Below, one piece after another: positions 5,341 through 63,740 of a DNA stretch of 64,000 bases (positions are counted from its first letter, which is position 1; each line of letters begins with the position of its first letter). The DNA comes from Lathyrus oleraceus (lineage: Eukaryota > Streptophyta > Magnoliopsida > Fabales > Fabaceae), in assembly GCF_024323335.1 (NCBI RefSeq), contig NC_066581.1:178367330-178431329 (forward strand), written 5' to 3'. Below the pieces are notes generated by a model, which worked only from the letters and a program-made list of their open reading frames with translations, did no database searches and was not told the DNA's origin. Position numbers and translations under genes: made by a program.

Positions 5341-5637
5341 GATGTTGTTTTCCTTTTCTCTTTGTAATGATCAAAAATGCTGTACTTCTTTGTTGAATAT
5401 ATTGAATGAGATATTTTCCATATGAAATTAAAATGCTTTAAATGATCAAAATATTGCAAATAATACCCTAAGGGTTCCTTGAAAATCAATAAAGCATCTG
5501 CATAAGCATTTCATGCATCATTTTGCATAAGCAGGTACCCTTGTTTCTGGTCTTCTTGTCCTAACTCTGTGTTCTTCATTTATTTTGAAGACAAGCTGAC
5601 TCGCCGGTATTATACTCGAGCCAATTCCGCAAGAGTA
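5341..5637 (+). other. Spacer between ORF1 and gag of element A
   Basis: AT-rich non-coding spacer of 297 bp. The gag frame is already open from about 5569 but has no ATG before 5638. A pyrimidine-rich stretch surrounds GCAG at 5530-5533, which could serve as a splice acceptor; this is only a possibility. No hairpin family from the other non-coding regions was found here. Confidence 0.5.
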
Positions 5638-8600
5638 ATGGATCAGCTAGAGCAAGAAAACCGTGAACTGAAAGAAGAGGTCGCCAGACTTGGCGCTTTG
5701 ATGGAGCAACTCCTTGCTGCTCAGAATCAACCTGCTCAACCGCCTGCAACTCCTGTCCAGAGGACTGTGATCTCAGAGATTGTAGCTTCGACTGTGCCTG
5801 CTGCCAGTGCTCATTATGTGCCCAACGCTATGCCAGTCGGGTTCCCTTGGGGTATGCCTCCAGGTTTCATGCCTGACATCCCCGCTCCAACTTTTGCTCA
5901 TATGTCGGCATCTAGCCCGGTCCCTGTTGCTGCTCCTCCTGTCGTGCATACCATGCCAAGGGTAGACGACACCATCTACCATTCCGAGCCGTCTGAGGGC
6001 CCAGACGTTAATGAAAAGATGGACGCCATGAACGACCAATTCCTTGAGCTGAGGAAGGAATTGAAGACCCTCAGAGGTAAAGATCTATTCGGCAAGTCTG
6101 CTGCCGAGCTCTGCCTTGTTCCCGGTGTGAAGATACCGATTAAATTCAAAGTACCTGACTTTGAAAAATACAAAGGAAACACTTGTCCTCTTGCTCACCT
6201 GGTTATGTATGCCAGGAAGATGTCTACCCAGACTGATAATGATCAGCTGCTGATTCATTATTTCCAAGATAGCCTGTCTGGTGCTGCACTCAGATGGTAC
6301 ATGAGCTTGGACAGTGCTAACATCAGATCCTTCAACGATCTTGGAGAAGCCTTCGTCAAGCAATATAAATACAACGTCGATATGGCGCCTGACCGTGATC
6401 AACTTAGGTCCATGTCGCAGAAGGATAAGGAGACATTCAAGGAGTACGCCCAGAGGTGGCGAGAGCTGGCAGCTCAGATTACTCCACCGCTTGAGGAGAA
6501 GGAAATGACTAAGATCTTCTTGAAGACTCTTAGCTCATTTTATTATGAGCGGATGGTAGCTGGTGCTCCCTCTGACTTCACCGAGATGGTGAATATGGGG
6601 ATGCATCTCGAAGAAGGTGCCCGTGAAGGACGTTTGGCAAAAGATGAAGGCTCTTCTAGCAAGAGGTATGGAGCCTTTGCTAAGAAGAAAGATGGGGAAG
6701 CACATGCTGTGCAATCCCATAATAAATCAAGGAAACCTCCCGTTCAGAGGAAACCAGCACGTCGTGCCGGTCATCAGCATCAGGTGGCTCATATAGCACC
6801 TGTCTTCAAAGATAATGCTCAGCAACATCAGCAATATCAACATCAGCAACAATATCACCAGCCTCAGTATCAGCAACAACAACGTCCACAGCAACAGGCT
6901 TACCAGCCTCGTGGAAGCACAACCAACCAGGCTAACCTGAGTTATGACAGGAAGAAGATCAGCTTCGATCCTATCCCAATGTCATATGCAGAGCTTTATC
7001 CCTCCTTGTTGGAGAGGAAGTTGGTAACTCCCAGGGATCCTCCTGCTATCCCTGCAAATCCGCAATGGTGGTATAAACCAGATCAGCACTGCGTTTACCA
7101 TTCCGGAGCTCCGGGCCATAATATAGAGAACTGTTATCCACTCAAGACTAAGGTTCAGGACCTTATGAGATGTGGGATTTTGAGCTTCGAAGATTCGGGC
7201 CCAAATGTCACTAAGAACCCATTGCCCGCGCATGGGAAATCTGTGAATATGGTCCAGGGATGCCGTGGGAAATATAAGGTCAAATATGTTAGTCATATTC
7301 GACGGTCGTTGGTGGAGCTACATCGCTTGCTGTGTCAATATAGCTACATGGAACATGACCACGACAAATGCCGTATCTGTTCAGTTAACCGCTTGGGTTG
7401 CAACCAGGTGCGAAGAGAATTGCAAGAGTTATTAGACGAAGGAACCATTGAGATTCTGCAGAATCGCAATGTTGACGAAGATGAACCTGAGGTTAATGTT
7501 ATATCTCCAGTGTTCAAGTTACCCGAGCCTGTTGTTATTCGCTATGATAGCAGCAAGCCGAAGGCTTCTCCCTCGTTGGTCATTAAACCTGCCGGCCCCA
7601 TGCCTTATTCATCTGACAAAGCTGTACCGTTCAGATACAACCCCGTCGCTGTGCAAGATGGGGTAGAAGTGCCTTTGACTTCAACGTCTGTAACCAACAT
7701 CGCTGATGTAAGCGGTTTGACCCGGAGTGGTCGTGTATTTTCTGCGCCTCCTAAGGCTGTTGCGTCTGAATCTGCTGAACGTCCGGTTGGGACGGCCGTG
7801 AATAGTCAGAATCCAGCACTTGATGTTGCCAGACCCTCCTCCGTACAAAAGACTCCTACTTCTTCAGTTGGCCCGAGTGGCATTGCGAACGAAGAATCTG
7901 ATGAGATGCTGAGGCTCATCAAGAAAAGCGAGTATAACGTTGTAGACCAGCTTCTACAAACGCCATCCAAAATCTCCATATTATCCTTGCTGTTGCATTC
8001 AGAACCCCATAGGGAGGCTCTGCAGAAAGTCCTGGATTTGGCGTACGTTGATCACGACATCACTATTGAACAGTTTGACAGTATTGTTGCAAACATCACT
8101 GCTTGCAACACTTTAAGCTTTAGTGACGCTGATCTCCCTGAGGAGGGAAGAGACCACAACATGGCTTTACACATCTCCATGAATTGCAAATCTGATGCTA
8201 TGTCCAATGTGTTGGTGGACACTGGATCATCTCTTAATGTATTGCCAAAGACCACACTCGCTCGTTTGTCATATCAAGGTCCTCCTATGAGGCAGAGTGG
8301 GGTCGTTGTGAAAGCTTTTGATGGGTCGCGCAAGACCGTGATTGGGGAAGTTGATCTCCCTATCAAGATAGGACCAAGTGATTTCCAGGTTACCTTCCAA
8401 GTAATGGATATCCACCCATCATATAGTTGTCTCCTTGGCAGACCATGGATTCACGAGGCTGGCGCCGTGACATCCACTCTACACCAGAAGCTGAAATTTG
8501 TCAAGAACAAAAAACTGGTTGTAGTAGGGGGAGAAAAGGCTCTCCTGGTTAGCCACCTGTCTTCTTTCTCATATATTGATGCAGAGGATGAAGTTGGAAC

Positions 8601-8949
8601 GCCGTTCCAAGCTTTATCTATTGATGAACCGATTGAGAAGAAGTCTCCTTCATTTGCTTCCTACCGAGATGCAAAACTGGCCATTGAATGTGGTGCAGTT
8701 GCTGGTTTAGGGAAGATGATCGAGCTAGAAGACAATAAATCCCGGGCTGGCATTGGCTACTGTTCTGGGGCATATGATGAGCAAGGTTTGTTCAAGAGTG
8801 GAGGATTCATCCATGATGAGCAACCGGAAGAAGCTACTGCTATCTTAGAAGAGGAAACAGAGGACCTGAGCAACTTTGTTATTCCTGGTGGTGTCTGCCG
8901 CAATTGGGTCGCTATGGATGTTCCTACAGTTATCTATAGATCAGAGTAA
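5638..8949 (+). CDS. Gag-protease polyprotein of element A
   Basis: Gag forms the particle and the aspartic protease cleaves the polyprotein. I start at ATG 5638 because it opens a clear coiled coil (residues 1-29) and the upstream part of the frame has no ATG. Seen in order: a Pro/Ala-rich stretch; the Retrotrans_gag core at about nt 6120-6620; a Gln/His-rich stretch near 6810-6910; a knuckle-like motif C-x2-H-x5-H-x4-C at 7090-7134, in which the second Cys of the usual CCHC is His; and the protease active site Asp-Thr-Gly at 8218-8226 followed by Ser-Ser. The frame is intact for 1103 codons. Its stop TAA (8947-8949) overlaps the 5' splice site of the intron, so unspliced RNA makes Gag-Pro and spliced RNA continues in frame into RT. 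That is what is expected for Ogre, where partial splicing is known. Confidence 0.93.
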   Translation: MDQLEQENRELKEEVARLGALMEQLLAAQNQPAQPPATPVQRTVISEIVASTVPAASAHYVPNAMPVGFPWGMPPGFMPDIPAPTFAHMSASSPVPVAAPPVVHTMPRVDDTIYHSEPSEGPDVNEKMDAMNDQFLELRKELKTLRGKDLFGKSAAELCLVPGVKIPIKFKVPDFEKYKGNTCPLAHLVMYARKMSTQTDNDQLLIHYFQDSLSGAALRWYMSLDSANIRSFNDLGEAFVKQYKYNVDMAPDRDQLRSMSQKDKETFKEYAQRWRELAAQITPPLEEKEMTKIFLKTLSSFYYERMVAGAPSDFTEMVNMGMHLEEGAREGRLAKDEGSSSKRYGAFAKKKDGEAHAVQSHNKSRKPPVQRKPARRAGHQHQVAHIAPVFKDNAQQHQQYQHQQQYHQPQYQQQQRPQQQAYQPRGSTTNQANLSYDRKKISFDPIPMSYAELYPSLLERKLVTPRDPPAIPANPQWWYKPDQHCVYHSGAPGHNIENCYPLKTKVQDLMRCGILSFEDSGPNVTKNPLPAHGKSVNMVQGCRGKYKVKYVSHIRRSLVELHRLLCQYSYMEHDHDKCRICSVNRLGCNQVRRELQELLDEGTIEILQNRNVDEDEPEVNVISPVFKLPEPVVIRYDSSKPKASPSLVIKPAGPMPYSSDKAVPFRYNPVAVQDGVEVPLTSTSVTNIADVSGLTRSGRVFSAPPKAVASESAERPVGTAVNSQNPALDVARPSSVQKTPTSSVGPSGIANEESDEMLRLIKKSEYNVVDQLLQTPSKISILSLLLHSEPHREALQKVLDLAYVDHDITIEQFDSIVANITACNTLSFSDADLPEEGRDHNMALHISMNCKSDAMSNVLVDTGSSLNVLPKTTLARLSYQGPPMRQSGVVVKAFDGSRKTVIGEVDLPIKIGPSDFQVTFQVMDIHPSYSCLLGRPWIHEAGAVTSTLHQKLKFVKNKKLVVVGGEKALLVSHLSSFSYIDAEDEVGTPFQALSIDEPIEKKSPSFASYRDAKLAIECGAVAGLGKMIELEDNKSRAGIGYCSGAYDEQGLFKSGGFIHDEQPEEATAILEEETEDLSNFVIPGGVCRNWVAMDVPTVIYRSE

Positions 8950-9213: not shown

Positions 9214-12200
9214 GTTGATCCTAAAACCCATTGAACATAATGATCCAACGCCATCTCCCAATTTTGAATCCCCTGTATTTGAGGCAGAGGAAGATAACGT
9301 TGAAGAGATTCCTGATGAGATTACCCGTCTCCTTGAGCACGAGAAGAAGATCATTCAGCCGCATCTCGAAGACTTGGAAACAGTCAACTTGGGGTCTGAG
9401 GATTATGTTCGTATGGTGAAGATTGGGGCACTCCTTGAAGGGTCTGTCAAAGAAGATTTGATCAGTTTGCTACGAGAATATTCCGATATCTTTGCTTGGT
9501 CATATGAAGACATGCCGGGTCTAGATACAGATATTGTGCAACATTTCCTGCCTTTGAAGCCTGAGTGCGTGCCTGTGAAGAAGAAGCTCAGAAGAACTCA
9601 TCCAGATATGGCAGTGAAGATCAAAGAGGAAGTTCAGAAGCAGATTGATGCGGGGTTTCTGGTGACTTCTACATATCCTCAATGGGTGGCCAATATTGTG
9701 CCTGTTCCTAAGAAGGACGGAAAAGTCCGTATGTGTGTTGATTATAGAGATTTGAATAAAGCTAGTCCGAAAGATGATTTTCCTCTACCACACATTGATA
9801 TGTTGGTAGATAATACAGCTAAATTCAAAGTCTTTTCGTTTATGGACGGTTTTCCGGATATAATCAAATCAAGATGGCACCCGAAGATATGGAAAAGACA
9901 ACATTCATCACACCTTGGGGAACATTCTGTTATCGAGTGATGCCCTTCGGTCTGAAGAACGCCGGAGCCACGTATCAAAGAGCTATGACTACCTTGTTTC
10001 ATGATATGATGCACAAGGAGATAGAGGTCTATGTTGATGATATGATTGCTAAGTCCCGAACGGAAGTTGAGCATGTTGAGCATTTGTTGAAGCTTTTTCA
10101 GCATTTGAGGAAGTTTAGACTTCGCCTGAATCCGAACAAATGTACATTTGGAGTCCGTTCCGGCAAGTTATTGGGTTTTGTTGTTAGCGAGAAAGGTATT
10201 GAAGTTGATCCTGCAAAGGTCAAAGCAATACAAGAGATGCCTGCACCCAAAACTGAGAAGCAAGTCCGAGGTTTTCTTGGCCGCTTGAATTACATTTCCA
10301 GATTCATATCCCACATGACTGCCACATGTGCGCCTATATTCAAGCTCCTCCGGAAAGATCAGTCTCATGATTGGACCGAGGATTGCCAGAAAGATTTCGA
10401 CAGTATCAAAGAGTATCTGTCTGAACCTCCGATCTTGTCTCCGCCTGTGGAAGGAAGACCTCTATTTATGTATCTGACTGTTCTTGAAGACTCGATGGGT
10501 TGTGTACTCGGTCAACAAGATGAATCAGGGAAGAAAGAATCTGCTATATACTACCTCAGTAAGAAATTTATTGATTGTGAGTCTCGGTACTCTATGCTTG
10601 AGAAGACGTGCTGTGCTTTGGCTTGGGCTGCTAAGCGTTTGCGCCAGTACATGATAAATTATACAACTTGGTTGATATCCAGAATGGACCCAATCAAGTA
10701 TATCTTCGAGAAGCCTGCTTTAACTGGGAGGATTGCTCGTTGTCAGATGTTGTTGTCTGAGTATGATATTGAGTATCGAGCTCAGAAAGCTATCAAAGGT
10801 AGTATTTTGGCTGACCATCTAGCGCACCAGCCGATTGAAGATCGTCAGTCTGTTCAGTATGACTTCCCTGATGAGGAGATTCTGTATTTGAAAATGAAAG
10901 ATTGTGATGAGCCTACACTTGATGAAGGTCCAGAACCTGGTTCCAGATGGACGATGGTGTTTGATGGCGCTGTTAATCAGTATGGAAATGGAATTGGGGC
11001 AGTGATTATTACTCCTCAAGGTTCTCATATTCCATTTACGGCAAGGCTAACTTTCAAATGCACGAATAATATGGCTGAGTATGAGGCCTGTATTATGGGA
11101 CTTGAAGAATGCATTGATTTGAGAATCAAGCATCTTGACGTGTATGGTGATTCGGCCCTCGTTGTCAATCAGATTAAGGGTGAATGGGAGACGAATCAGC
11201 CAAGTCTCATTCCGTACAGAGATTATGCGAGAAGGATTTCAACATTCTTTACAGAAGTTGAATTTCATCATATTCCTCGAGAGGATAATCGGATGGCAGA
11301 TGCGCTTGCTACGCTTGCTTCCATGATTGTAGTCAGACGATGGAATGAAGTCCCCAATATTACCGTGATGCGCTTGGATAGACCATCTCACATATTTGCA
11401 ATCGAAGAAATCGAAGATGACAAGCCTTGGTATTTTGATATCAAGAATTTCCTCCAGAACCAGGTCTACCCGCCTGGGGCATCTGTGAAAGATAGGAAAA
11501 CTTTGAGAAGGTTGTCGGGCAGTTTCTACCTCAGTGGTGAAGTGCTGTATAAGAGAAATTTTGACATGGTTTTGCTCAAATGCGTGGATAGACACGAAGC
11601 AAACCTGTTAATGACTGAGGTCCATGAGGGTTCATTTGGTACTCATTCCAATGGACATGCTATGGCTAAGAAGATGTTGAGAGCAGGCTACTATTGGCTG
11701 ACAATGGAGTCTGACTGTTGCAAATATGTGAAGAAATGTCACAAGTGTCAGATTTATGCGGATAACATTCATATTCCTCCGACACTCCTGAATGTGATAT
11801 CATCACCATGGACTTTCTCCATGTGGGGAATCGACATGATCGGCATGATCGAGCCGAAAGCGTCCAATGGACACAGGTTTATTCTCGTAGCAATTGATTA
11901 CTTCACCAAATGGGTTGAAGCCGCTTCATACGCGAATGTGACCAGACAGGTGGTTGTGAAGTTTATCAAGAACCAGCTGATTTGCCGTTATGGTGTGCCA
12001 GAGAGGATCATTACTGATAATGGATCCAATCTGAATAATAAGATGATGGATGAGTTGTGCGCTGAGTTTAAGATTGCACACCATAATTCCTCTCCCTACA
12101 GACCCAAGATGAATGGGGCTGTTGAAGCTGCTAATAAAAACATCAAGAAGATTATCCAGAAGATGACTGTCACGTACAAAGATTGGCATGAGATGCTGCC

Positions 12201-12675
12201 ATTTGCTTTGCATGGATATCGTACGTCTGTACGCACTTCAACAGGGGCAACCCCTTTCTCTCTTGTTTATGGCATGGAGGCCGTTCTCCCAGTAGAGGTG
12301 GAGATCCCATCAATGCGAGTCTTAATGGAAGCCAAGTTGACTGATGCTGAATGGGTTCAGAGTCGTTATGACCAACTGAATTTGATTGAAGAGAAGCGAT
12401 TAACTACCATGTGTCATGGTCAGTTATATCAGCAGAGAATGAAGAAAGCATTCGATAAGAAGGTCAAGCCTCGTGTGTTCCGAGAAGGTGACCTTGTGCT
12501 CAAGAAAGTTTTGTCTTTCGTGCCCGATTCCAGGGGCAAGTGGGCTCCAAACTATGAGGGTCCATATGTTGTTAAGAGAGCCTTTTCAGGCGGAGCTTTA
12601 ATGCTTACAACAATGGATGAGGAGGATTTCACTCGTCCTGTGAATTCAGATGCAGTCAAGAAATACTTTGCCTAG
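9214..12675 (+). pseudogene. RT - RNase H - archaeal-type RNase H - integrase exon of element A, one frameshift
   Basis: Reverse transcribes and integrates the element. The first frame (9215-9940) carries the N-terminal RT part; the second (from before 9874 to 12675) carries the rest. The break is a one-base loss in the T run at 9850-9853, in the conserved RT block with the first catalytic Asp; everything downstream stays open for over 930 codons. Seen: RT Tyr-Val-Asp-Asp at 10030-10041; a Ty3-type RNase H at about 10440-10830; a second RNase H with its first Asp at 10963-10965, as in the Tat lineage; integrase zinc finger with His at 11623 and 11644 and Cys at 11737 and 11746; catalytic Asp 11833, Asp 12016 and Glu 12124; and a C-terminal GPY-type module near 12555-12675. 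As it stands the frame cannot give full-length Pol unless the ribosome shifts. I see no slippery-site design, so a disabling mutation is more likely. Confidence 0.93.
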
Positions 12676-16641: not shown

Positions 16642-17560
16642 TTATATCTCATGCACTCTGTGGGTTTGTGTCCCCAGTTGAGTAAGATTCGTGTCCCGTT
16701 GTGGATTCGAATGTCCATCCTGTAAGTCGATTTGCTTTTTCAAGCCCTCCTTTCGGATGATGAGTGTCTTGGCATATATACCAATTCACGTTTTGGTCGG
16801 TCACCTATTATATACTTCGGTATCCCTGGTGTTCCTTCCTTTCTACTCCCTATTATGACCTTGGTCCCCTATGGAGTCAGATTTTCCTGAGTTTTGTACC
16901 TGTTTTAGGTCTTCCTCAGATATTGGTTGATTGATATCTCTCACCCTTATACCGGTCTTAGATATTCATTCTTCCTGAGTTTGTTGCCCTTATACAGGTA
17001 ACACCTCATCCTTGTTGCTTTTCCCAGGAGAGTAGGAGAGTCTCTTCGTTAGACATTCCCCTGCGGAGTTTCCTTTGGTGATTTTTTTCCCTTGCTATAT
17101 GGGCGTTTCCCCAGTATATGCATCTCCCGGCAGGGAGGTTCTTTGTGAATCTTTTCCTGGTCCGAGTCCGGATTTTTATCCGAAGTATCCTTTGTGGATA
17201 GTTTGAGTCAGCTTGTGTCTTTCCAATGGATTTATCTTCCTTTGGAATTCTTTATTCCCCAGTATGAGTCCTCTGCTTCCCCAGCGAGGTCTCCAGTCCA
17301 GTCGTGTCTTGGTCACGCTGTGTCAGTTTTGTTTTTCCCCTAATCAGAGTCGTGTCCTGCTCACGCATTCTTTTTCTTTATTATCCCAATAAGAGTCCTA
17401 ATAAGAGTCTTATTAGAGTCTCTGTTCCTGGTGAGTGTATTACTCCGATGGATCGTCTTTTCTTCTGTGTGAACCATATTCCCCACAGAATTTGTGTCTT
17501 TTGCATGCATACATCTGCATCATGAGGTCTCTTAGGGACCAAAATTTGTCTCATTACTGT

Positions 17561-17642
17561 TATTTAAGCCCATTCTACCGCGTCGAGATGAAGATTTCTA
17601 AACTTCATATCTCCGGATAGAATGACCTTAAATAGGGGCATC
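17561..17642 (+). promoter_or_regulatory. Polypurine tract of element A with an abutting long hairpin
   Basis: The purine tract AATAGGGGCA (17631-17640) precedes the 3' LTR and primes plus-strand DNA. It is directly preceded by a hairpin whose outer arms are TATTTAAG 17561-17568 and CTTAAATA 17627-17634, with inner paired segments CATTCTA with TAGAATG, CCG with CGG, GAGAT with ATCTC and GAAG with CTTC. The right arm ends where the G run starts. B, E and F have a stem at the same position with different sequences. Confidence 0.82.
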
Positions 17643-19560
17643 TGTAAGACCCCAATTTTGTCCCTAAGATCCCTCATGGCTCATATCATATCATATCATG
17701 GCCTCAAGGATCATTGCATACCCTAGCTTCCCTCCTAGTGGGTGGGTTATCTTGTGAGTGTGGTTCTTGATCACCAAGCATGTATTGCATTTGTATATCA
17801 TTGCTTTTCATATGTTTACTAACCAAAAGTACAAAAATATTGTCATCTAACCATGTTACTTGCAGATGAAGCTAACTAGGTCAAAACAGTCAAGGCATGC
17901 ATTGAGCCATAGATGGTGGCCATTCTTGAAGAATTTGGACACCATGGTCATTCATAAGAAGCTCCTATGACTTGTGACATCATTTGGAATCAAGATCTCA
18001 AGTGGAAGAGGCTTGAAGTTCATCAGAACATGGCTCAGTCAACCAAAACCCTAGAAAAGTCAACTGTGATCAACTGTGCATTTAATCAGGGATTGGAAGG
18101 TCTGAGATGGTTAGAAAGACCTAATTCATGTCCATACAAGTCTCATTTGACATTTCAAAGATCATCATTGAAGAATTTGAGGTCAAACAAAAACTTTCCA
18201 AAAATAGAAAGTGACCTGTAATTTCAAACTGCCAAAAATGGAAAGTTCTTCTCCTCAAAATTACATGTCCAAGAATGCTTCAAATGAAATTTTGTCCAAC
18301 ATGAAAGTTGAAGATCTTGCTCTCACCTTTCCAAAAAGTCCAAGAACACTCATTTCTCATGTGTGGTTGGCAAGTTATGGTCAAATCATTTTCAAGAAAA
18401 GTTGAAATTCAAAGTGGCATAACTTTTGAATGGAAAGGCGAAATTGGGTGATTATTTTTTGATCAAACCACATTTGATGTGCACTATCCAAATCCATCAT
18501 CACATTTCATTAAAAACCATCACATAAAAAGGTCATTTTTCAAGTGAACCATTTAAAATTTGGTGGGAAAAAAGGTCAATTTGAAAAGTACATGGAATTT
18601 TCATGCCAAACCAATTGGAATTGTTTCTAAACATGATTTGTGATGTGCTGCAAGCAAAAATTTACTGTTCCATTGGTTCTAAGTGAAAAAGGGCAATTTT
18701 GCCAAATTGCATAGCATGTGCATTTTGCTAATCACTTCCAATTTGCTTAATCATGATTAAGGCTTTGGATTAACAGGACTATAAGAGCTTAATCATAACA
18801 GAAACTCAGGATCCACATTCATTTTCTCAGATCAAACTCACAAATTTCTCAAATTCTCTCAATTCTTCTCAAGCTTCTTTTTCACTTTTCCATCGAATTC
18901 CTTAATTCCTCTTGCTGGTGTTTGTGTTGATCATCAATTTCAGGTGCTATTGAAGATCTGTTTGAGGCAAAGGTGTGGAAATTCTTGAAGAAAACTCACT
19001 GTTGAAGCAAGCTCACTCACATGGAAGTTGGAAAATTCTGGTGATCCAAGCATTGTTGAGCTGAAGCATTGATTCTATTCATCTCCTGCATCATTCTAGG
19101 CCACCTGTTTTCACCATTGGAGCCTTGAGGAGCTCGATTTCACTGCTGTTGCTTCATAGAGGTAAGAATTCAAATCCTTCGATTCTTGAAATTGACATGT
19201 GGCTTAGGTAGATCGTAGTACATAGATCATTCTGCCATTTGAATCGTGCTAATCCATCAAGTATTCATGGAGAAATCTTGATTTGAAGTTTGGACATCAA
19301 AACTTCCTTCCATCGAATCTTTTTCTATGTTGAATTCTAGATAAAATCATGATGATATTGTAGATCCTTGTTGAAAGACGAACCGATCCATATATAATTT
19401 TCCTATTTCTGTGTGAATTTGTTCTTGATGATGAAGAACATCAAGAACACGATGAGTTCTTCATGATTTTCGTTCCAGAACGCGTCCAGATCCGTTTTGC
19501 TATGCCTGGCGTTTGAATTGGTGTTTACCGTGTTTGCCATCCATTCATGCGTTGCCACCT

Positions 19561-19591
19561 CACTTAATGAAACGCAGCGTTTCATTAAGTG
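19561..19591. repeat. Perfect 31-bp palindrome in the LTR of element A
   Basis: Arms CACTTAATGAAACGC and GCGTTTCATTAAGTG surround a single A. The core AAACGC-A-GCGTTT is echoed in the D LTR near 35897 (AAACGCAGTGTTT) and loosely in the B LTR near 27513 (GAAACGGATGCGTTTC), so the centre seems to be an old feature of the U3 region. Confidence 0.85.
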
Positions 19592-21639
19592 AGTACCAGA
19601 ATTACGCTTTTGCCATTCGTTCACTTAATTTCATTTTAATTGTTAAATATTTATTTCATTTCATCATGAAACTTCAAAAAATCATAAAATATTCATGGAT
19701 GATCCAAATTGGCTGGGGATTTTTGCATTCATCTCCATTTTCTCTCTATTTTTTTTAGGCATGATAGCAAAAGTTGTGCATGGTTGATTTTTTATTTTGC
19801 CTAATGATTTTGATCATGTATGCTTTGTGTATAGGTTTTACCATTTTAATTGTAAAATAATGATGCCTTATTGGAAATGCTTGAAATTTTATATGCATGA
19901 TCTAGACTCATCCCTGGTGATTTTGGTATATAGTTTGCTATTTTTGAGTTTCTGGTTTGGTAGATATGATGTGATCAAGTTGAGTGTGACAATGTGTGTC
20001 ACACTATGTTATGTCTAACTTCTTGAATTTTGTTTCCATACTTATTGAATGCCATTTGCTCTGGATTTTTGCATGAGACCTCATCTAGATGTTAGCTTTA
20101 ACTATGTTTTTTAGTGGATTTTGTTGATCCATTTCCTATTTGATTCGGATTTTCTTTGCTGTTTATCCATTTGTGAACTTTTATTGAGTGATCAACTTAT
20201 ATGATTTGGGAAATCCTCATGCATTATTGGATGGATCTAAAATTTGGCATGTGCATTGTAGACATATTGAAGTTTTCCATGGCTGTAGTCCCATTCATTT
20301 ATCATGTTTGGTTTCTGTTTTACCCTTGCTTGAGGTTGATGCACCATTTGTGACCTAGTTTGGGTTTGTTTTTGCATACCATGACTTAGTGATTTAATTT
20401 CCATACTTCCTCTTATCCAAATAGCATGAAATTTGATATGATGCTCATTGAATGTGTTCTGTTTAGACTTGAATTTTTGTGGGATTTATTGAGCTATTTT
20501 GGTATTGGTTCAATTGTGATCATTCTGTTTGCTCATATGTGGTTCACACTTGCACACTTTGACCTAACTTGAGTATGAAATGAATTTGGTGTATAGTTTT
20601 GATATGAGACCAATTGGATTCTATTTTTGATTGATTAATCTTGGTTTTGATCATTTTTCACTTGCTGTTTTGAATTTTTCACCTCCTTTTGACCCTAGGC
20701 TTGTCCTAGTGGTCTTATTTCTCATGTTTGAGTTTGACTTTTCAGGTTAAGAAGCAAATGCTTTAAGGAGATTAATGCAAGTTGATTGAGTTTGGTTGAT
20801 TGTTGTGAACTAACTTGTTTTGTTTTGTAGGATGCTTAGCTCACTTGCTTTGAGCTTTATGCTTTACACATGTGATGGATTATGTTGTCTGTTGGTTCTC
20901 ATGTTGTTTGTTTTGACTTAATGAGTGGTATACTGATTATATTTGATTGATTTCAGGTACATTAGTTGCTAATAGTTCTTTGAGAACTTGCATTGCTTTG
21001 CTTGATAGCATTTGCATTGAGGTATAGCACCTTCTTCTTCATGTAGTCTGGAAGACCTGGCTTGTTACTTAGCCAGGCAACTGCTGAAGTCCTCCTTAAG
21101 AGGCAATGCTTGTGCTTGTTTATTTTTGTCCCCAAGCAGGAAAAGTCCTTTGAATAAGGCAATTGGTAGATAAAAGAGATATGTAGCCTATCTCCTACTA
21201 TTCTGTGTGTCTTCCCTTTGCTCACATTACATGTTTGAAGCATTGGGATCTTAACCCAAGATCTATAGAGTCAATAACTTGTGGAGAGAGTTCCATCTTT
21301 CTGAACTCCCACATCTTCTTTCATCTGATGCTCTCCCTGACCAGGGATAAGAGCAATGAGGCACACCCCTCATATCCTTTCATCTGCTTCACCTTGACCC
21401 CTCAATGGCAAGGTTAAGAGCAACATTAACCCTATTCCAGTTGGCTTCAATGCCTAACCCCTTGTTTGAGCCTGATGCTTGTATATAGTGTGTGCTCTTT
21501 GCTTATGTGGCTTGATTACTTGATTCATTTGTACATGATTACTTGAGTTTGCCATTGTGCATTTGTCATCATTAACTATTCATTTGTGCATGATCATTTC
21601 ATTTGTCTTAGTGACATATTGTTGTTTGTCCATTGAGGA

Positions 21640-21972
21640 CAACTGTAAGTCCATTTATTGGCCAGTAGTGTTCCCATGACATGGAAGGGATAGAGTGTAA
21701 GACCATTTCATTGGTCACTCATATCCTTTTTTGCTCTTTGTTTGAGCTTGTTGTTGTATGTGAGGATTCATTGTAAGTCCATGTAATATGGCAGTTGTTT
21801 TCCTATGATCATCTGTTGGAGGTCAGTATAAGTCCAGATAGATTGGCAACTGACATCCATGTTTTGTTTTGTTTTATTCTGATGGAGATTAGTATAAGTC
21901 CATAGAGTGGCTTCTGATATCCTTGTTTGTTTTAGGAGACTGGTATAAGACCATTGAGTGGCATCCGGTATC
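21640..21972 (+). repeat. TAAGTCCA hairpin repeats, 3' LTR copy
   Basis: Same six units as at 1500-1832. In the last unit the left arm is ACTGG at 21939-21943 and pairs fully with CCGGT 21965-21969; the 5' LTR has a C in this arm, which breaks the pair. All other stems are the same in both LTRs. Confidence 0.7.
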
Positions 21973-23649
21973 CGCTTTTGTTGACTTTCATCTGTTACCA
22001 TGTTCATGTATCATTGCTCAGTTGTTGCCTATTCCAAAGGACACACTTGAATCATCTTCTATATGATTTCAAGAGGTGAACCTTCTGAGAAGTTTTACAT
22101 TCCATCTTCCATCATTCATCCCCATTATGTCCTAAACCTTTTCACACATTGTTTTCAAAAACTTGAGATAAATATTGTGCAAACATTCTCACCTCTTTCC
22201 AAATTAGAAACCTGGACCTTAAGTCCTTGATTTTTTCAAACTTCACTTTTGTAAATACTTCTTTTGAATTGATCTTAACCATACCTTGACCATATTTTGT
22301 GAATAATCCAATCAACTAACTTCACCCATTCAAATGTTTTGTGGCTTTGTCCATGTTTGTTAAGCTTTCCATGCATTAGCCATAGGTTTCAATTACCATA
22401 GTGGTTGATGTAAATCTTACCTTATCCTTAGTGAGTTGATTGTAAGTCTTCCATACTTATTATAGGGTTAACCCCTCACTAGTATGTTGAAGCCGTCCTC
22501 GCATGGTGGATTGTTGATTCAGGTTGAGTTTTCTCCCATTGGTAATGAAAAGCCTTAGTGCTTGTGTTTTAAAAATTGAATCCACTAACTTTTGGAAGTT
22601 TTTAGCCGAACTACGGCGTTTTGATCCTTTACCTTTTCATGGAAAGGTACGTAGGCAACGGGTTCATCCGTTCAAACACAAAAATAATTAACTTCTACAT
22701 TCTTTTCTCATCATCCCAATCATGTTTGCACAATACTTATGTCATAACAAATAACAATTTCAAACAACAAGTGTGAAAAGGGATCCCTAGGAGTACCTAG
22801 GACGTTTTGGGTGCCTAACACCTTCCCATTGCGTAATTTACCCCTTACCCAGACTCTCTGATCTTTTCATTAGTTTGCTAAGTGTAAAACTTCTTAGGCT
22901 TTTGTTCGCTTTTTAGCCAGTCCTTTGGATAAATAAAAGTGCGGTGGCAACTCGATTCTTTGTATACTTTGCTTTTGGTTTAATCAATAGACCATAAAGT
23001 GACGAATACACCGCTACACTTCCTTTGTATTGCTCAGTTATGAGCCACACCTTTTTCAATCAATAAAATGCATATTCAGTCAAATAATTTTGTTTTTGTT
23101 TTTCATTACCGCTTTGATTGCAAAAACATCCAGTTATTTTTGATAAAGAATCTTTGCATTTTAAGACATACAGGTCCCTTCCAATGCATGTTATAAGATT
23201 GAAAACTTGAAATCTTATTCGGAAGGTGGGGTGACCCAAGTGTTGAAACTTTGGCAACGCCTGGGGCACGTTTTTATCTAACGATCTCTTTTGCAGATGC
23301 TGTTAAATACTTTCACTCACTTGCAGGTTGTGACGCGAAGCGTTCGTTTTAACAAAAAGATCCCCGGGGAGTCCAATCAGGGACAAGGGATCGAAGAATG
23401 GTGAAGGCAGCGAGAAACGTACGGCGATCCTGGAAATTAATCAAGAAGACTCTTCAAAGTCTGAGGACTGGAAAGTTTGTATGAATCCAGGAGTTCGATC
23501 TCTGTGGAGTACGGAGAAGTCGAGGATACAAGGTGATGAATCAGAAAAGTCCAGACGAGTCTGGGAGCTCTCAAAAGTGGAAAGCTGACACTGGATTTAG
23601 ATGTTGAATACCAGGGTTCGACGAGTCGACGGGTGTTCTGTGCCAGAAT

Positions 23650-24060: not shown

Positions 24061-24550
24061 CTTGAGGGGGATACTTTTTATGCATTCATCATGTAGATAA
24101 GCATAACATATTGCATAGCTAATCGCGAAGCATTTCCATGATTATGGAGCATTACGCTAAAAATCATCATGCATAAGCATTGCAAGCATAAGCTAGTCTC
24201 AAGCTGTGGTTACCGTTTGAGAATTGGTTTAGCCAAAGGGTGAAGATGTTACTCTGAGGAGTTTGGCATCGTGATTTTGAATCAACATTCCCCAGTAGTG
24301 CAATAGTGGAGGAAGGATTTCTGTCGGGCGGAGATGGAAATAAAAATCAAAGAAGTTTCGGGGTCCAAAAAGAAAAAAAGAAAGAAATAATCCCCAGCTG
24401 AGCGCAAACGGTTCGTTTGCTAGGGTTGAATAGAGGATAACATGCTCATGGCTTGTTATCCCCAGCAGGGGTCGTTGGCACGCGTGCCGCCTCATTTATC
24501 ACTATCCCTTATTTCTGCCGATGCTGACAGGCATGACAAGTTTTTCGGGT

Positions 24551-25340
24551 ATTCAGACCGATGTGGCGTTCAGGCCAGTTTTTTTGGGTATTCAGACCGA
24601 TGTGGCATTCAGGCCAGTTTTCCGATTTTCAGATCGAAGAAGCTTCCGAAGTTCATATCGATGCAGCTTACGGCATTCAGGTCAGGTTTCGGGTATTCAG
24701 ACCGATGTGGCACTCAGGCCAGTTTTCGATTTTCAGATCGAAGAAGCTTCCGAAGTTCAGATCGATGCAGCTTACGGCATTCAGGACAGGTTTCGGGTAT
24801 TCAGACCGATGTGGCACTCATGCCAGTTTCCGATTTCCAGATCGAAGAAGTTTTCGACGTTCAGGTCGAAGTACTTGTGGCATGCAGGCCAGTTTCCGAT
24901 TTTCAAATCGAAGAAGTTTCCGACATTCAGGTCGAAGTACTTGTGGCATGCAGGCCAGTTTCTGATTTCTAGATCGAAGAGGTTTCCGATGTTCAGGTCG
25001 AATTACTTGTGGCATGCAGGCCAGTTTCTGATTTCCAGATCGAAGAGGTTTCCGACGGTCAGGTTGGAGTACTTGTGGCACTCAGGTCAGTTTTCGGGTA
25101 TTCAGACCGAAGTGGTATCCAGACTGAAGTGGCATTCAGGCCAGTTTTTCGGGCATTCAGGCCAATCTCTCGGTGATCAGACCGATATTAATACTCTCAT
25201 ATTCCGATGCTCAGTATTCAGACTGACGAGCGGCGTTCAGGCCATGGTGTTTCCTGTGTTACCATTTATTTTGGTATCCAAGTCAATGTTCCTTTTCGGT
25301 ATTCAGGCCGACTTTCTCCATACCAGACGGATTCTTCTTT
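24551..25340 (+). repeat. Tandem array of NNTCAG-hexaloop hairpins (66-bp and 39-bp units)
   Basis: The right part has an exact period of 66 bp (units start at 24841, 24907, 24973, 25039); the left part alternates 39- and about 105-bp steps. At a finer scale the array is a string of small hairpins: a 3-4 bp stem, a six-base loop mostly ending in CAG, and the matching arm. Stems seen include GGT-ATTCAG-ACC, TGGC-ATGCAG-GCCA, CGAT-TTTCAG-ATCG, CGAC-GTTCAG-GTCG, CAGT-ATTCAG-ACTG and CGGT-GATCAG-ACCG. Neighbouring hairpins differ in stem but share the loop. F has the same design at 56167-56400. Confidence 0.82.
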
Positions 25341-25419
25341 TGAGATCACCTCGTTGCCGATTCTGACAGGCATTGTTAATTATTTCCCAGCGGAGTGCAA
25401 ATTGTTCGCCTGTTCTTGG

Positions 25420-25502
25420 TATTCAATCACTTTTCACCCTGATCATCTGAAAGCCGAGGTTGTTCATATCGACAGGTTCATAGTGGATTGAATAGGGGCA
25501 GC
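25420..25502 (+). promoter_or_regulatory. Polypurine tract of element B with abutting stem
   Basis: TATTCAATC 25420-25428 pairs with GATTGAATA 25486-25494; the right arm runs directly into GGGGCAGC (25495-25502) and the LTR starts at 25503. The enclosed stretch is 57 nt. Confidence 0.8.
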
Positions 25503-28500
25503 TGTAACACATCAAAATTTGCCCTCCTCTTCTTGGGACTAGCTTAGCATATTGCATTTCATTTTTTAGGACATTAGGTATTGGCATGTTGCATATCATG
25601 TGAGAATAGACAAGTCATCCTCCTAATTCTTTCTCAGAAGATAGAAAGGTTGAGAGATTCATGCCTGAGGGTCTTGTTGAATTGATCAAACATCTGAGGG
25701 TTGCTCTTCAATTAGGGTTTTATTGGTTCCTCAAGGAGGTTGAGTATTATCTTGGTTGAAAGGGTATGTCACCATCATCATGGTCTTATCATCCTCAAGG
25801 GGCTCATTGTTCATGCTCAGATTCTTTGGGATTAGGGTTTTGACCTCTGGTCAACCCTAATCAGTTGCATTCTACCAGTCAGGGTTTTTCAAGGAGATGA
25901 GGTTATTTGTTTGGATGGAGATCATATGGTTATTATGTGAAGCTTACAAGAGCTAGGGGTTCATTTTGGAGCCAATTCCTTAGGTGGTTGAGGCTCAAGC
26001 TGATCAGAGCATGGCTAGGTCATCTGAGGACCTAGAAAGTCAACAGAAAGTCAACTGAGGGCTAGGAGGTGGAGAAATGAGTTTCAACATCTCATTCATG
26101 TTCAAAAGAGGCTTATTCATCATGTCAAATGTATATCTTGAATAATTTGAGGTCAGATCAAAAGTTTCCAAAAATGGAAAATGACCTGTAATTGAAAGTT
26201 TCCAAAAATGGAAAGGTTTTGGTTCAAATTCAACTTGATCTTACATCATCAAATAAGCTTCAATTGAATTTTTGTCCAACATGAAAGTTGAATATCTCTC
26301 TCTCCCATTTCCAAAAAGTCCAAGATCATGAATTTATGATGAATGGTTGAGGAGATATGATCAAATCATTGCCAAGGATGCATGGAACTTCAAAAGGGCA
26401 TAACTTTTGATTCATAACTCCAAATTTGGTGGCTCTTCTTGCATTTTGCTTCTCATGACATGAAGTTTCCAAATTAATCATCACATTACATAAAATGTTA
26501 TCACATGATCATTTGCATATCCATGCTCATTTTGGAGGGAAACTTGAAAATTTAAAAATGGTGCATCATGAGAACTTTCTACCATTGCCAATGTGTTTAA
26601 AAAATGATTTTGAGTGACTTTGATCAAGCACATGACACTGTTCACGTGGGTTTACTACATGCACCATGCAATTTTCAAATTTTGCCAAACACCCTCATTT
26701 TGCTTAATCTCAAATTAACCATGATTAATTTTAATAAAAATGAGATTAGGACAGAGTATATATTGATAATCCTAACAGAATTTGAGAGAGGTTAATCATT
26801 TTTCACCCTTTTTGATCTAGTTTTCATCTCATATCAAAATTTTTCTCTCAACCAAAACTTGCAACTTCTTCACATAACCTTGCATTTTTCTTCTATATTC
26901 TGAATCATTGAGTGGAGTAGATGGATAATCAAGCTTTGGATCATTGATTTTGGTTAGAATTTGTGCATAGTAAGCTCAAGAACTCAATAATGGAAGTTGA
27001 TTGATAAGCTAGATCTACACGGTTTCAAGCTTCAATTTCTTCATCAAACATCATTACAAGGGTTCAGGAGTTGATTTGGATCATTGCAAGGCCTTAGATC
27101 GTGCGTTTTCAAGAGCTGTTCTTCAAGAGGTCACATTTTCGATCCTTTTAATTCTCTGTTTTATGTGTATGTTCATGTAGATCTTGTATTGCTAATAATT
27201 CTGAGCTAAATTTCACATGATTTGGTGCATTATTGAGGGAGTTATGTGTGATGGAAGTTTGATGCACCAATTTTCTTTTGTTCGATTCTCTTAATTGATG
27301 TTGAATTAAGCTTAGTTATGAGTTGATCCATGATGTACGTTGCATGAGCTTTGATTTGGTATCATTTTTGATGAATTCTGGAAAATTCTGGAAAATTGGT
27401 TTGAAGGTCTACTGTTCATCATCGTCTTCACGAGGAAGACGATGTTTTTCCAGATTAGCGACGGCCTAGCGTCCGTCTTTGCGTCCATCTGGTTCGCTAG
27501 GGTTCTTCATGTGAAACGGATGCGTTTCAATGTAGCGCGCCTCATTTCAAATCTGGACCGGCTTCGATTCTTGGCGCAAGCAATTTTTCAAATTAATGCT
27601 TCATTATGCCATTTCCCTCCCTATTTTCCATGCTATGATCATTTTGATTTTTATTTTTTCTTCCAACTTCAAAAATTCATAATAAATTGAAAAATGCTCC
27701 AAATAATCCCTGGTTTTTTGCTACTTGTTCATTGAGATGTCCTATATTTGATGATGTTAATTTCTGAAGTTGTGCATGGCTGAATTTTGGATTGTGCTAG
27801 ACTTTGTGATCATGTGTATATTTGTGACCTTGCTCCATTCTTTCCATTGTGAAATGCTTGATTTTAATCCAAATGCCATGAAATTTTGCATGATGATTTC
27901 TAACATGTTGATGAATGTTTTAGGCTTGGTTTGGTATTTTTCTCATTTGCCATTTCTGTTTTATGCACATGTTTGCATGGTGTGACAATTTGTGTCACAC
28001 ATTTGGTTGATCAACGTGTGCAATTTCATTTCCATATCAAATGACTTCTGTTGGTTCTGATTTTTTGTATGATGATCATGTTGGATGTGTTGAATGCTCA
28101 TGATTTTTTCCAGAATTATTTGAATCATTTCAGTTTTGATTTGGAATTTTCATTCTCAATGTCTAAATGTATGCTTTGAAATTGTCTTTGACTTCCCTTG
28201 CTTATTACATGGACTTGCTTGATGATCTTGACTTGGTCCTTTTTAGGACATGTTAATAAGTGTTTGAAGTTGCATTGTGTTGAATATTAGCTCCTGTTTT
28301 GGATTTTTTCTTCACCTTTGACCCTAGGCTTTGACCTAGTGGTTTGGACTTACATGTGAGCTTTGAATTTCAGGTCCGAGCACCTAATCTTCATGGTTGA
28401 TGTTGCTTCATCATTTGAATGTTGATGTTTGCTATTAATGGCTAACATTTGTTTGTTTTGTAGGTTGATGATAGCTCACTTGAGTTGTTTGGCTTATATG

Positions 28501-37516: not shown

Positions 37517-37685
37517 CTAAAAAAAAAAAAAAAAAAAAAAAAACGAAAAAAAACGAAAAAAAAAACGAAAAAAAAAAAGAAAAAAAAAGAAAAAAAAGAG
37601 AATTTTTTTTTTATTAATTAATTAATTAATTAATTAATTAATTAATTAATTAAATAATTAAAATAAATAAATAAATAAAATATAA
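37517..37685. repeat. A-rich and (TTAA)n simple repeats in the U3 of E
   Basis: A run of A with occasional C and G (37520-37600) is followed by a TTAA-TTAA run (37612-37655) and AAATAAAT words. The copy in the 3' LTR (63740-63850) differs in length, mainly in the A run, as expected of replication slippage. Confidence 0.85.
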
Positions 37686-37743
37686 CAAATTATTTTGGAC
37701 TTGGGTCTCCCTCATTCCAAGCCCATTACCCACGAAATTAGTC

Positions 37744-56149: not shown

Positions 56150-56166
56150 ATGTCTTATGTTTTTCC

Positions 56167-56430: not shown

Positions 56431-56906
56431 TCTCCGTTGGTGTCGATAAACGTCGAGTTTTTCCCAATCATTTGTTGATGATTTGGTTGTGTTCACTCTC
56501 CTCAGTAGAGTTTCCTCCTCTCCGTTGGTGTCGATAAACGTCGAGTTTTTTCTATTCGTCCTATGACGTCTAGTTGTACCTGTCCCCACGTGGATTTACC
56601 TCTCCGTTGGTCTTGGTAAACGTTGAGTTTTGCCCATTTCGTCCATTGACGTATGGTTGTATCCCTTCCGGTCATTCATTAATGACTGGTTACCTCTCCG
56701 TTGGTCTTGGTAAACGTTGAGTTTTCCTAGTTGTCCGTTGGCATCTAGTTGTGATTTCTTTTCCCGTTCATCGTCGTTGCGATGTCTGGATGTGGCCGTA
56801 TCCTTTGAAAACAAAAACAAAAATATATACCCGGTAATAAATATCAAATCCCAGTGGACGTTTCCATTGGTGGATCCCCGTATTGTGCAAATTCTACGGT
56901 TCTTGG

Positions 56907-56988
56907 TATTCAATCCCTGTTTACCCTGAAAGTCTGACAGCCGTTGCTCTCATCCATTCGGGTTCCCAGCTGATTGAATAGGGGCAGC
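56907..56988 (+). promoter_or_regulatory. Polypurine tract of element F with abutting stem
   Basis: TATTCAATC 56907-56915 pairs with GATTGAATA 56972-56980, which is followed at once by GGGGCAGC and the LTR start at 56989. The enclosed stretch is 56 nt. Confidence 0.82.
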
Positions 56989-59975
56989 TGTAGCACCTCA
57001 AATTTGCACCTATCATTGTACATACATTTTCATATTAGGTCATAGAATATCATGGTCCATTGCATAGCATTGCATTGCCTCTTTTGCCTCAAGTGCAAGC
57101 CAATCAAGGAATTAGGTCAAACTGATCAGGAGATCAGTCAGTCAAGCAAGCAAGTGCATTTCTCAAGGAGCCAAGACCCTAGGGTTTGTCCAACAAGCTT
57201 ACATGACTTGGAGGTCTATTTGAAGTGTTCAAGTCAAGGGTTGAAGGCTCAGAGGTCATCAGTTCATACACAGACAGTCAAAAACCCTAGACAGTCAACA
57301 GTCAGTCAAAGCAGTGGATGGTAGCCATTCTTGTGGAATTTGGGCACCATGATCAATAATCAAGAGTCCATACAACTTGGGACATCATTTGAAGTCAAGG
57401 TTTCAAGGAATTAGGGTTTGGAAGTCATCAGTCAATGCACAGTCAGTCAGAAACCCTAAAAGTCAACTGTTGGTCAACCGTCCATTTAATCAGTGATCTG
57501 ATGATGGAAATTGGTTTGAGAGGTCTCATTCATGTCCAAATAGTCCTCATGTATCATGTCAAACACCATCATGGAAGAATTTGAAGCCAGATCAGAAATT
57601 TCTAAAAATGGAAACTGGACCTGTAACTGAAACTTACCAAAATGGAAAGTCTTGATCCTCAAACTTACATCATGATACAAGCTTCAAATGAATTTTTGCC
57701 CAACATGAAAGTTGAAGATCTTGTTCTCCCATTTCCAAAAAGTCCAAGAACTCTCAATTCCCATGTGTGGTTGGCAAGTTATGATCGAATCGATTTCAGA
57801 AAATCTTGAACTTCAAAAGGCCATATCTCTCAAACCATTTGGCCAATTTTGGTGGGGTTTTTTCCTACAAGTCACATTTGATCCCCTCTTTCCAAAAATA
57901 TAAATTTCATGTGCCAAAACTTCACCAATCAAAATGGCATTTTTTGACTTATCTCATTTAAATGCAAGTTTGACCAATGTTTGACTTTTTGATTTATCAT
58001 TCTTTAAACCACTTGGCCAATTGAAATAGCTCAGAAATGTCATTTAAAGTATGTTTGCAAGCTCAAATTATGCAGTACTTGCACCCATCATGTATCCATG
58101 CTTAGTTGCTTGAATTGGAAGAAAGGTACACTTTCACCATGCTACTCCATACTATCCACCATACCTTGCTTTGTACTCTTAAAACAGAAAATTAGAAGGT
58201 CATTCTCTGTCATTATGAACACAATTTGCAGCCCAAAACCAACAGCAAAACAAAGGCCATGTCCTAGTTGCTTGAAAATTGGCAAAAGTACACTTTCATC
58301 CATACTTCCACACCTTGCTTTGTACCACAACCTAGCAGACCTTAGGCATGATTTTTTCTGTCATTTTGAGATTCAATTGCAGCCACAATCAAACACATTG
58401 CAGCAGAAAATCACTCATCCTAAAAAAAATTCATTCACCTTGCTTTGGCATTTTGAGAAAAGGCTGTCAAAAAACTCAAAAGTTTCAAGGCTTGGCATGA
58501 CCACAAAAAACAACATCCAACAGCAGAGTATATTTCATTATTTTTTCTGTCATGTTAAACACCAATAGCAAGAACAAACCATTTTCATTCATTCTCTAAA
58601 ACATCATCTTGGATGCATTTCTAAAACCATGTCCAAAGACACCAAAGAGACAAATGCCTTGCCCTACCACAAACAACATCAAACAGAACTTTCAAACATC
58701 TTTTTCTGTCATGGCCAAACCCTCATAGCAGACAGCACAAACCAATAGAACCTCATTCATTCATGCTCACTCTTGGCCATTTTCTCAAAAGGCTGCCAAA
58801 AGCCTCAAGTAACCTAACCTGGCCTTGCTTGAGACAATAATAAAACATCATTTTTCTGTCAAGAAAACACTAATAGCAGCCTCACTTTGACAGCAGGAGG
58901 CATTGGTTCTCTCACTCTCTAAAAATCCCTCTTACTTGCATTTCTCAAAACCAGTCCAAAACACAAAAGAACCTAAGCCTTGCATTGATGTTTCACCATC
59001 CATTCATCATTTTGAAGACACTAGAGGCAGCCACAAACCAGCAAAAGAGCCTCTAATCTCATTTTCACATTTCATTCAAAAAAGCCACAAAATAGCCAAA
59101 ACATGACAACTCTTGTTCTAAGCATTTGTTGATCAAAAGAGCATTGCAAACACATCTCAAACATCACATAGCAAATGTCCAAAGCCTCAAAACCTGCAGA
59201 AAGCATCAAGAACTCAAAATCACTTTTCAACTTGTCACATTGTGTCAAATTTGCATTTTCAAAGCTACTTTCACTCTCAGGTCATTCCGAGCTTAGCAAA
59301 TTAGTTTGTCATGGTCCATAGGGTATATTGAAGCTGTCTCAAACCTCCATTGCTCACTGTTTGAAAATCAAAAACATCACCATTCTCAAAAATCAAGCAA
59401 AACCAGTTCAGTGGCCATCTTCATTTCCAACTTGATTCAAGTTCAAGTAAGGTGTCAAACAGCCTGCCTTGGACCCTTTGAAGCTATTTGGATACCTGTC
59501 AAGCATTGAAAGCATCTCCAGCATCACATTCAACATTGCCCTGTTCAGGTTAGCAATTTGCCTTCGAAATGCTTGATAGAATGATTTTCATGTCTTGATG
59601 TGTGAATGAGAAATGCTATATTCAACCCCCTGAACATGACTGAATGCCTATTTTCATCCAATTTTGCTTGTGTGTGATTTTGAGTTTTGCTGCTAGATGT
59701 TAGGGTTTCTGTGTTCATCATGATATATCTCTATGCACAGTGCACCATTTTGAATTTCATGGCCATGGTTGTGTTAAGCACATGAAGTAGATGAATTTTG
59801 GTTTTTGTTTCATTTAATTTCGTGCACTGTAGAGGAAGATACATGGTGTTGAAGTTTGAAAAAAAATATGTTTTCGTATGAGTTTGGGGAAGAAGATGAA
59901 GCCAGGGCGCGCGAATTTTAAATTTAAAAATATTGCTTGGCTTGTTTTGACTGGAAGCGAAAATGAATCACCAAG

Positions 59976-63520: not shown

Positions 63521-63620
63521 TGAAGCTTTCGTCATCAAACCTCCCGGATGGCATCTTTAAGCCCATCTCCATCAAGACCAACTGTCGATTCTCAAGTGCA
63601 AATTTTTGGGGCATTCTAGT

Positions 63621-63705
63621 GTTCAATAATCTTCCACCTCCAGACCACGAATGGCATACACGCCATCCTAACTCTCTCGGTTCAAGAATATTGAACAGGG
63701 GCAGT
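63621..63705 (+). promoter_or_regulatory. Polypurine tract of element E with abutting stem
   Basis: GTTCAATA 63621-63628 pairs with TATTGAAC 63689-63696, with TCTT and AAGA extending the stem inward; the right arm is followed by AGGGGCAGT and the LTR start at 63706. The enclosed 60 nt contain a second hairpin, ATGGC 63651-63655 with GCCAT 63662-63666. Confidence 0.82.
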
Positions 63706-63740
63706 TGTCATACCCCAAAAATTACCCATCATTTTTCCTA

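Follow-up and report, generated by a model that had tools for sequence, protein, structure and literature searches.

In duck hepatitis B virus, a hairpin in the minus-strand DNA at DR1 controls where the RNA primer is used. Among LTR retroelements, the Sireviruses (Ty1/copia) carry an inverted repeat at the junction of the polypurine tract (PPT) and the 3' LTR; there, one end of the helix coincides with the 5' border of an 8-nt PPT, one of the two arms falls within the 3' LTR, on average 28 bp into it, and the authors propose that the repeat helps in forming the PPT primer (PMC2829016). In HIV-1 and SIV the cPPT and the PPT lie in conserved RNA structures, whose function is judged differently in two papers (PMC3616985, PMC4439019). 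Here we describe a paired structure at the PPT of Ogre elements. No description of a PPT hairpin for Ogre was found among the listed titles and abstract openings, which came mostly from outside subscription journals and did not include the original Ogre papers.

Ogre elements make up a large share of some legume genomes. The window that we analysed, 64,000 nucleotides of Lathyrus oleraceus (contig NC_066581.1), contains nested long-LTR elements, as found by self-comparison. Element F is complete, with LTRs at 43992-49590 and 56989-62586 that are 99.86% identical (an LTR pair of 5599 bp). Element A has its 3' LTR at 17643-23018 and the end of its 5' LTR at 2878, the 3' LTR of element B begins at 25503, and that of element E begins at 63706 and continues past the window edge; the 5' LTR of E starts at about 37,535, a position taken from the offset of the match 37569-37829/63740-64000. 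Elements C and D are fragments, with no 3' end in the window. In element A, an ORF at 3760-5340 matches DUF7745 (E 3.7e-135), which we take to be the domain corresponding to Ogre's extra ORF upstream of gag, and it lies upstream of the gag ORF (5506-8949). After an ORF gap between 8949 and 9823, the ORF at 9823-12675 contains RT_RNaseH (residues 212-314), RVT_3 (380-498) and integrase domains (588-761), and the order in the element is DUF7745, gag, protease, RT, RNase H, second RNase H, integrase. Very long LTRs are a criterion for Ogre, as are an intron between PROT and RT and the type of PBS. Another is a second RNase H (aRH) between RH and the integrase, which is common to Ogre and Retand (PMC6317226). 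The extra ORF upstream of gag and the position of the aRH were both found in element A and very long LTRs in element F, and the domain order of A, as predicted from its ORFs, fits Ogre (Ty3/gypsy, Tat clade).

Short tandem repeats lie just upstream of the 3' ends of B (24810-25139), F (56161-56384) and E (62833-63381), those of B and F being of a similar kind; a 310-residue open frame inside the repeats before the 3' end of B (24434-25366) has no Pfam match. Near the start of the E LTR a long A run is followed by TTAA repeats (63740-63835), and 63740-64000 has a second copy, 97.7% identical, at 37569-37829.

At the 3' ends of A, B, E and F, a stem (P2) directly precedes the GGGG of the PPT; outside it lies a second helix (P1), in which upstream sequence is paired with the beginning of the 3' LTR. 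The features are located in the window as follows.

17521..17546, plus strand: element A, left arm of outer helix P1
17561..17568, plus strand: element A, left arm of P2 (8 bp)
17627..17634, plus strand: element A, right arm of P2, touching GGGG at 17635
17634..17642, plus strand: element A, PPT region AGGGGCATC, presumed extent; LTR starts at 17643
17654..17678, plus strand: element A, right arm of P1, inside the 3' LTR start
25389..25406, plus strand: element B, left arm of P1
25420..25428, plus strand: element B, left arm of P2 (9 bp)
25486..25494, plus strand: element B, right arm of P2
25494..25502, plus strand: element B, PPT region, presumed extent; LTR starts at 25503
25514..25530, plus strand: element B, right arm of P1, in the 3' LTR
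56885..56900, plus strand: element F, left arm of P1
56907..56915, plus strand: element F, left arm of P2 (9 bp)
56972..56980, plus strand: element F, right arm of P2
56980..56988, plus strand: element F, PPT region, presumed extent; 3' LTR starts at 56989
56995..57009, plus strand: element F, right arm of P1, in the 3' LTR
63601..63614, plus strand: element E, left arm of P1
63620..63628, plus strand: element E, left arm of P2, TGTTCAATA (9 bp)
63689..63697, plus strand: element E, right arm of P2, TATTGAACA
63697..63705, plus strand: element E, PPT region, presumed extent; LTR starts at 63706
63710..63723, plus strand: element E, right arm of P1, in the 3' LTR

A first-pass annotation of the window had claimed a stem before the PPT in A, B, E and F, and the stem is present in all four complete 3' ends. 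Since these are all the Ogre-type 3' ends of the window (by self-comparison and a primer-site scan, counting Ogre-type elements only), the four cases are unselected. The enclosed length of 56-60 nt and the contact of the right arm with GGGG (a spacer of 0 nt) hold in every one of them, and the inner stems claimed for A and E both appear in folds. The stem length of 8-9 bp stands for A (8), B (9) and F (9), while the stem of E, at 63620-63628, has 9 bp and not 8. The stems do differ in sequence, but B and F are related to each other by self-comparison, so that the window holds three versions rather than four; a wider sample adds more. The PPT of Ogre elements, AGGGGCANN, is short and impure. 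The stem of the first-pass annotation is only part of the structure, as the outer helix with the LTR start was missing from that reading.

The likeness to the Sirevirus repeat, as its report describes the junction, is twofold: a helix arm borders the PPT without a spacer (67/68 Ogre loci; 12/12 when 0-3 nt were allowed), and one helix arm lies inside the 3' LTR, in Ogre P1 from LTR base 3-13. The layouts differ, however. The single Sirevirus repeat closes over the PPT, which lies in the loop, whereas P2 of Ogre is a separate hairpin wholly upstream; the partner of its PPT-bordering arm starts 72-80 nt before GGGG, and it is P1 that has an arm in the LTR. The lineages differ as well, Sireviruses being copia elements and Ogre a Ty3/gypsy Tat element with an aRH, as the domain order of element A indicates. 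Relative to the Sirevirus work, the present analysis also tests for covariation and for the strand that folds. With HIV and SIV, Ogre shares conserved pairing adjoining the plus-strand primer, but in the structures presented in PMC3616985 and PMC4439019 the 3' G-rich part of the PPT is itself paired, whereas the Ogre PPT lies outside P1 and P2. A 3' G-run paired in a conserved helix is not what we find, B and F having no CCCC. As in duck hepatitis B virus, a small hairpin of minus-strand cDNA may act on a plus-strand RNA primer, although that virus belongs to an unrelated family and its hairpin lies at the primer site and inhibits in-place priming. The Ogre structure thus shares the logic of the known PPT-adjoining structures, and differs from them in layout (an upstream hairpin plus an outer helix) and in superfamily.

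One genome of 3,795,255,167 bases was searched for the stem. The primer-site pattern ATAGGGGCAGNTGT had 41,035 matches, against 46 for the reversed control. Within the window, a scan with this pattern gave 10 matches where 6 were expected; one, at 11475-11490, is a single mismatch off the pattern, lies inside the RT-integrase frame of element A and is possibly due to chance. Three sets of loci were examined: 68 with the ATAGGGGCAG primer site (the first 68 of the 100 listed among the 41,035 matches; 8 loci and 60 regions), 30 out of 8,902 places with ACAGGGG, and 50 out of 262 places with a base other than A before GGGG, the last 20 of which were picked for varied LTR starts. With the right arm fixed directly before GGGG, at least 7 of the 9 Watson-Crick pairs form in 67/68 loci of the ATAGGGGCAG set (at least 8 in 64/68), in 30/30 of the ACAGGGG set and in 39/50 of the non-A set. 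After the upstream sequence was shuffled, about 4-8% reached 7/9 across the three sets; in the ATAGGGGCAG set 8.3% did so, and 0.8% reached 8. Seven of the 11 misses in the non-A set are, from a reading of their rows, LTR starts without internal sequence (L033-L036, L103, L107 and L113); they have no stem and served as negative controls outside the 145-locus sets. The other misses, L013, L021, L029 and L115 from the non-A set and L086 from the ATAGGGGCAG set, are copies that have diverged or shifted. With a spacer of 0-3 nt permitted, the best Watson-Crick stem ended 0 nt from GGGG in 12/12 rows. The left-arm start varies from -72 to -80 relative to GGGG when the right arm is fixed, and the enclosed sequence and length vary. 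The 102 loci with A before GGGG comprise 71 with 9/9 pairs, 25 with 8, five with 7 and one with 6, and pair types were counted in the 101 with at least 7. Scans for relatives elsewhere yielded none: the pattern had no match in viral contigs, a protein-based scan gave two pattern matches, neither of them a relative, and the scan of other genome contigs returned two contigs, both bacterial, that match by chance and lack the stem (L099 and L100, left out of the 145-locus sets).

The stem occurs in several versions, namely TATTCAATC/GATTGAATA, TATTTAAG(T)/(A)CTTAAATA, TATTTAATC/GATTAAATA, TATTTAATT/AATTAAATA and TGTTCAATA/TATTGAACA. One version with all nine pairs perfect (C-G at pair 5) has at least 27,655 copies genome-wide, and on the same fixed background the T-A version of pair 5 has at least 1,613, T.G at least 147 (plus-type) and C.A at least 192 (minus-type), in a table where kinship inflates the counts, T.G and C.A are the only mismatches counted and the 192 include a four-copy tandem array. 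Stems broken by T.G or C.A at pair 5 are rare, and the mismatched copies look like decay after insertion. The array, at G000:C2:363460081-363469378, has four 3' ends with the same C.A stem mismatch every 3.07 kb. Similar spacing, as in tandem arrays derived from element ends, is seen at G000:C1:9061245-9070022 (three primer sites about 4.38 kb apart) and at C1:162327132-162432333 (two pairs of primer sites about 3.98 kb apart).

At 80% identity, the 145 usable loci (141 from the genome and four from the window) fall into 13 clusters; three clusters contain 115 of the loci, and six consist of a single locus. Pairing could have been confined to a few subfamilies, which would have spoken against the first-pass annotation. 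Within this one genome, 11/13 clusters hold loci with at least 7/9 pairs, and the single-locus clusters L086 and L115 do not. We tested covariation in the 141 loci, leaving out A, B, E and F, for nine P2 pairs named beforehand, against a tree-aware null in which substitutions are reshuffled along the tree. Pairs 2 (E 0.0036), 5 (E 0.0002) and 8 (E 0.0085) covary, each with one change from one Watson-Crick pair to another on a branch of the reconstructed tree; the summed score was 326, versus -37 to 56 when the register was slid by 1-3. Pair 9, which is C.C or T.C in the A type, was not significant in the 141 loci (E 1.1). Pairs 3, 4, 6 and 7 are near-invariant, and pair 1 is tied to the A of the PPT. 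The significance of the covariation depends on the test having been restricted to nine pre-named pairs: in an unrestricted scan of about 11,900 column pairs no P2 pair fell below E 0.05 (best E at most 0.17), pairs 5, 2 and 8 ranking 2, 8 and 11 (E 0.17, 4.0 and 10.3), and the sole column pair below that threshold was -65/-59 (E at most 0.017), outside any helix. Covariation, which the first-pass annotation proposed to test, was seen at three of nine pairs against the tree-aware null, and neither at pair 9 nor for any P2 pair in the unrestricted scan. The annotation's claim of selection on pairing is upheld by the covariation in the 141 held-out loci, by a stem that stays directly before the PPT while the interior varies, and by perfect pairing in tens of thousands of copies; P2 is very likely real and selected for. 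The stemless L086 was kept in the pairing counts, clusters, RNAalifold, the folds of 24 representatives, covariation and the 145-locus P1 test, and lies outside the 23-representative sets (mismatch types, inner pairing, P1 energies and own-LTR comparison); these representatives, like the 24, were selected manually with the aim of covering the clusters.

P2 is the base of a longer imperfect hairpin. RNAalifold, applied to the 24 representatives selected by hand, recovers P1 and P2 along with inner helices, with z values versus shuffled columns of -8.8 for the plus strand and -13.0 for the minus strand. In 23 representatives the hairpin makes 500 Watson-Crick pairs, arms included, versus 429 (sd 11.6) after the inner 21 bases on each side were shuffled; the inner helix contains a conserved ACC/GGT group whose pairs hardly vary. 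A tRNA-like fold was considered for this hairpin of about 75 nt with a 9-bp closing stem and was rejected, as RNAalifold gives one long hairpin and there is no Rfam match (0 matches in the window among 4227 models at the gathering score).

The left arm of P1 lies about 95-115 nt upstream, and its partner is formed by the first bases of the 3' LTR (U3). The pairing exceeds 95% of a locus's own shuffles in 121/145 loci and does not in 24/145; among the LTR starts without internal sequence, 0/7 pass the same test. The first paired LTR base is 3-13 in 142/145 loci (most commonly 5, 12, 8, 7 and 4), and the A type P1 spans at least 25 nt, with mismatches. Mean pairing is 23.8 with the own LTR start versus 18.1 with those of other families, a comparison in which LTR starts are alike across families and in which L106, L073 and L108 score no better with their own. 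The primer site and the LTR junction sit between helices P2 and P1. Pairing of GGGG in the PPT with CCCC at LTR bases 8-11 (for example, window 17635-17653) is possible in many families and is seen in the RNAalifold model; a PPT-U3 hairpin of this kind was dropped as a general feature, since B has CATC and F has CCTC instead of CCCC.

The first-pass annotation had left open whether the structure is one of RNA or DNA. In the 24 representatives (RNA parameters, mononucleotide shuffles), the hairpin region had a mean z of about -3.3 on the plus strand and about -5.0 on the minus strand, with the minus strand lower in 21/24 and the plus strand folding better in three. With DNA parameters and dinucleotide shuffles, applied to 13 of 14 chosen loci (one was too short), the means were -2.90 and -3.89, with the minus strand lower in 11/13 and the plus strand better in 2/13. 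Windows further upstream reached only -0.49 to -1.25 on either strand. This advantage of the minus strand is due to the kind of mismatch, with G.T kept and A.C avoided on that strand: among 133 mismatches in 23 representatives, plus-strand A.C (which is G.T on the minus strand) occurred 38 times versus 25.4 (sd 4.5) expected, and plus-strand G.T three times versus 10.9 (sd 2.8). P1 shows no excess of A.C (fraction 0.208 versus 0.217), and its duplex energies favour the minus strand in 20/23 (RNA parameters) and 17/23 (DNA parameters). The genome-wide wobble counts at pair 5, 147 plus-type versus 192 minus-type, are close and say little about the strand. Mismatch types and folding energies moderately favour the minus strand, that is, first-strand cDNA, over genomic RNA, so that the evidence leans to a DNA structure, and the chances that the structure acts in minus-strand DNA appear about even.

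The data show that the arms pair, where the stem lies, that its pairs covary and how abundant it is; a role in plus-strand priming and folding of the minus strand are what we infer. The structure is likely a signal for reverse transcription, and P2 and P1 together would most likely act in cis to define or hold the plus-strand primer. Function is hinted at most strongly by the distance of 0 nt to the PPT, because a general RNA signal would not need contact. For the same reason we consider it very improbable that a structured RNA signal unrelated to priming, for nuclear export of unspliced RNA or for packaging, lies beside the PPT by chance; such a signal would also not need pairing with the LTR start. 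Ogre transcripts are partly spliced (PMC6317226), so that unspliced RNA may need help with export. Other retroelements have export elements close to the 3' LTR. Only slightly less improbable is the absence of any function, with the inverted repeat staying perfect because the reverse transcriptase switches template, or because conversion copies changes from one arm to the other. Quasi-palindrome correction is an established mutation path, few independent paired events were seen, and the long P1 of the A type resembles an inverted copy of the LTR start; yet the PPT-side pairs are usually perfect (71/102 at 9/9) whereas the inner helix retains mismatches that are biased in kind, and the stem is found at the PPT in 11/13 clusters.

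The same structure may instead form in the plus strand, as genomic RNA. The reverse transcriptase, copying U3 and the PPT, would pause at the foot of the hairpin and so register where RNase H cuts near the junction of PPT and U3, or else the fold would expose the PPT, as has been proposed for the Sireviruses. P1 uses U3, which in genomic RNA is found only at the 3' end, and the plus strand also folds better than its shuffles (z about -3.3, n=24; -2.90, n=13). The PPTs of HIV and SIV lie within conserved RNA structures by SHAPE (PMC3616985, PMC4439019). Against this stand the rarity of plus-strand G.U mismatches (3 versus 10.9 expected) and the preference for the minus strand in 21/24 and 11/13; moreover, genomic RNA structure would be melted before the PPT hybrid exists, and a like argument is made for HIV in PMC3616985. 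We regard folding as genomic RNA as rather unlikely.

The explanation that we prefer, and to which we would give an even chance as a whole, is a structured cis signal of Ogre reverse transcription, with the minus strand folding around the plus-strand primer. After first-strand cDNA has been made and RNase H has removed the genomic RNA, the single minus strand would fold. The end of P2 would then stack on the end of the RNA/DNA hybrid at the PPT, which is short (about 8 nt), fixing the 5' border of the hybrid and preventing loss or digestion of the short primer, while P1 would bracket the U3 junction, the site of the RNase H cut and of the start of plus-strand synthesis. More tentatively, and at somewhat less than even chances, the folded minus-strand cDNA (P2 and P1) could be a cradle in which an RNA primer of about 8 nt is stacked upon at the 5' end and bracketed at the 3' end. 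A tract that is too short and impure to count as a classical PPT could then still prime; gypsy and copia elements would have arrived at this separately, with different layouts.

It has long been asked how reverse transcriptases pick a single short purine tract out of thousands of bases. An exact PPT register in tens of thousands of copies, kept through sequence change, amounts to a natural experiment on this question, and the Ogre hairpin offers a simple substrate for testing if flanking structure, and on which strand, defines the primer. The hairpin is also a landmark for annotating the 3' ends of Ogre elements.
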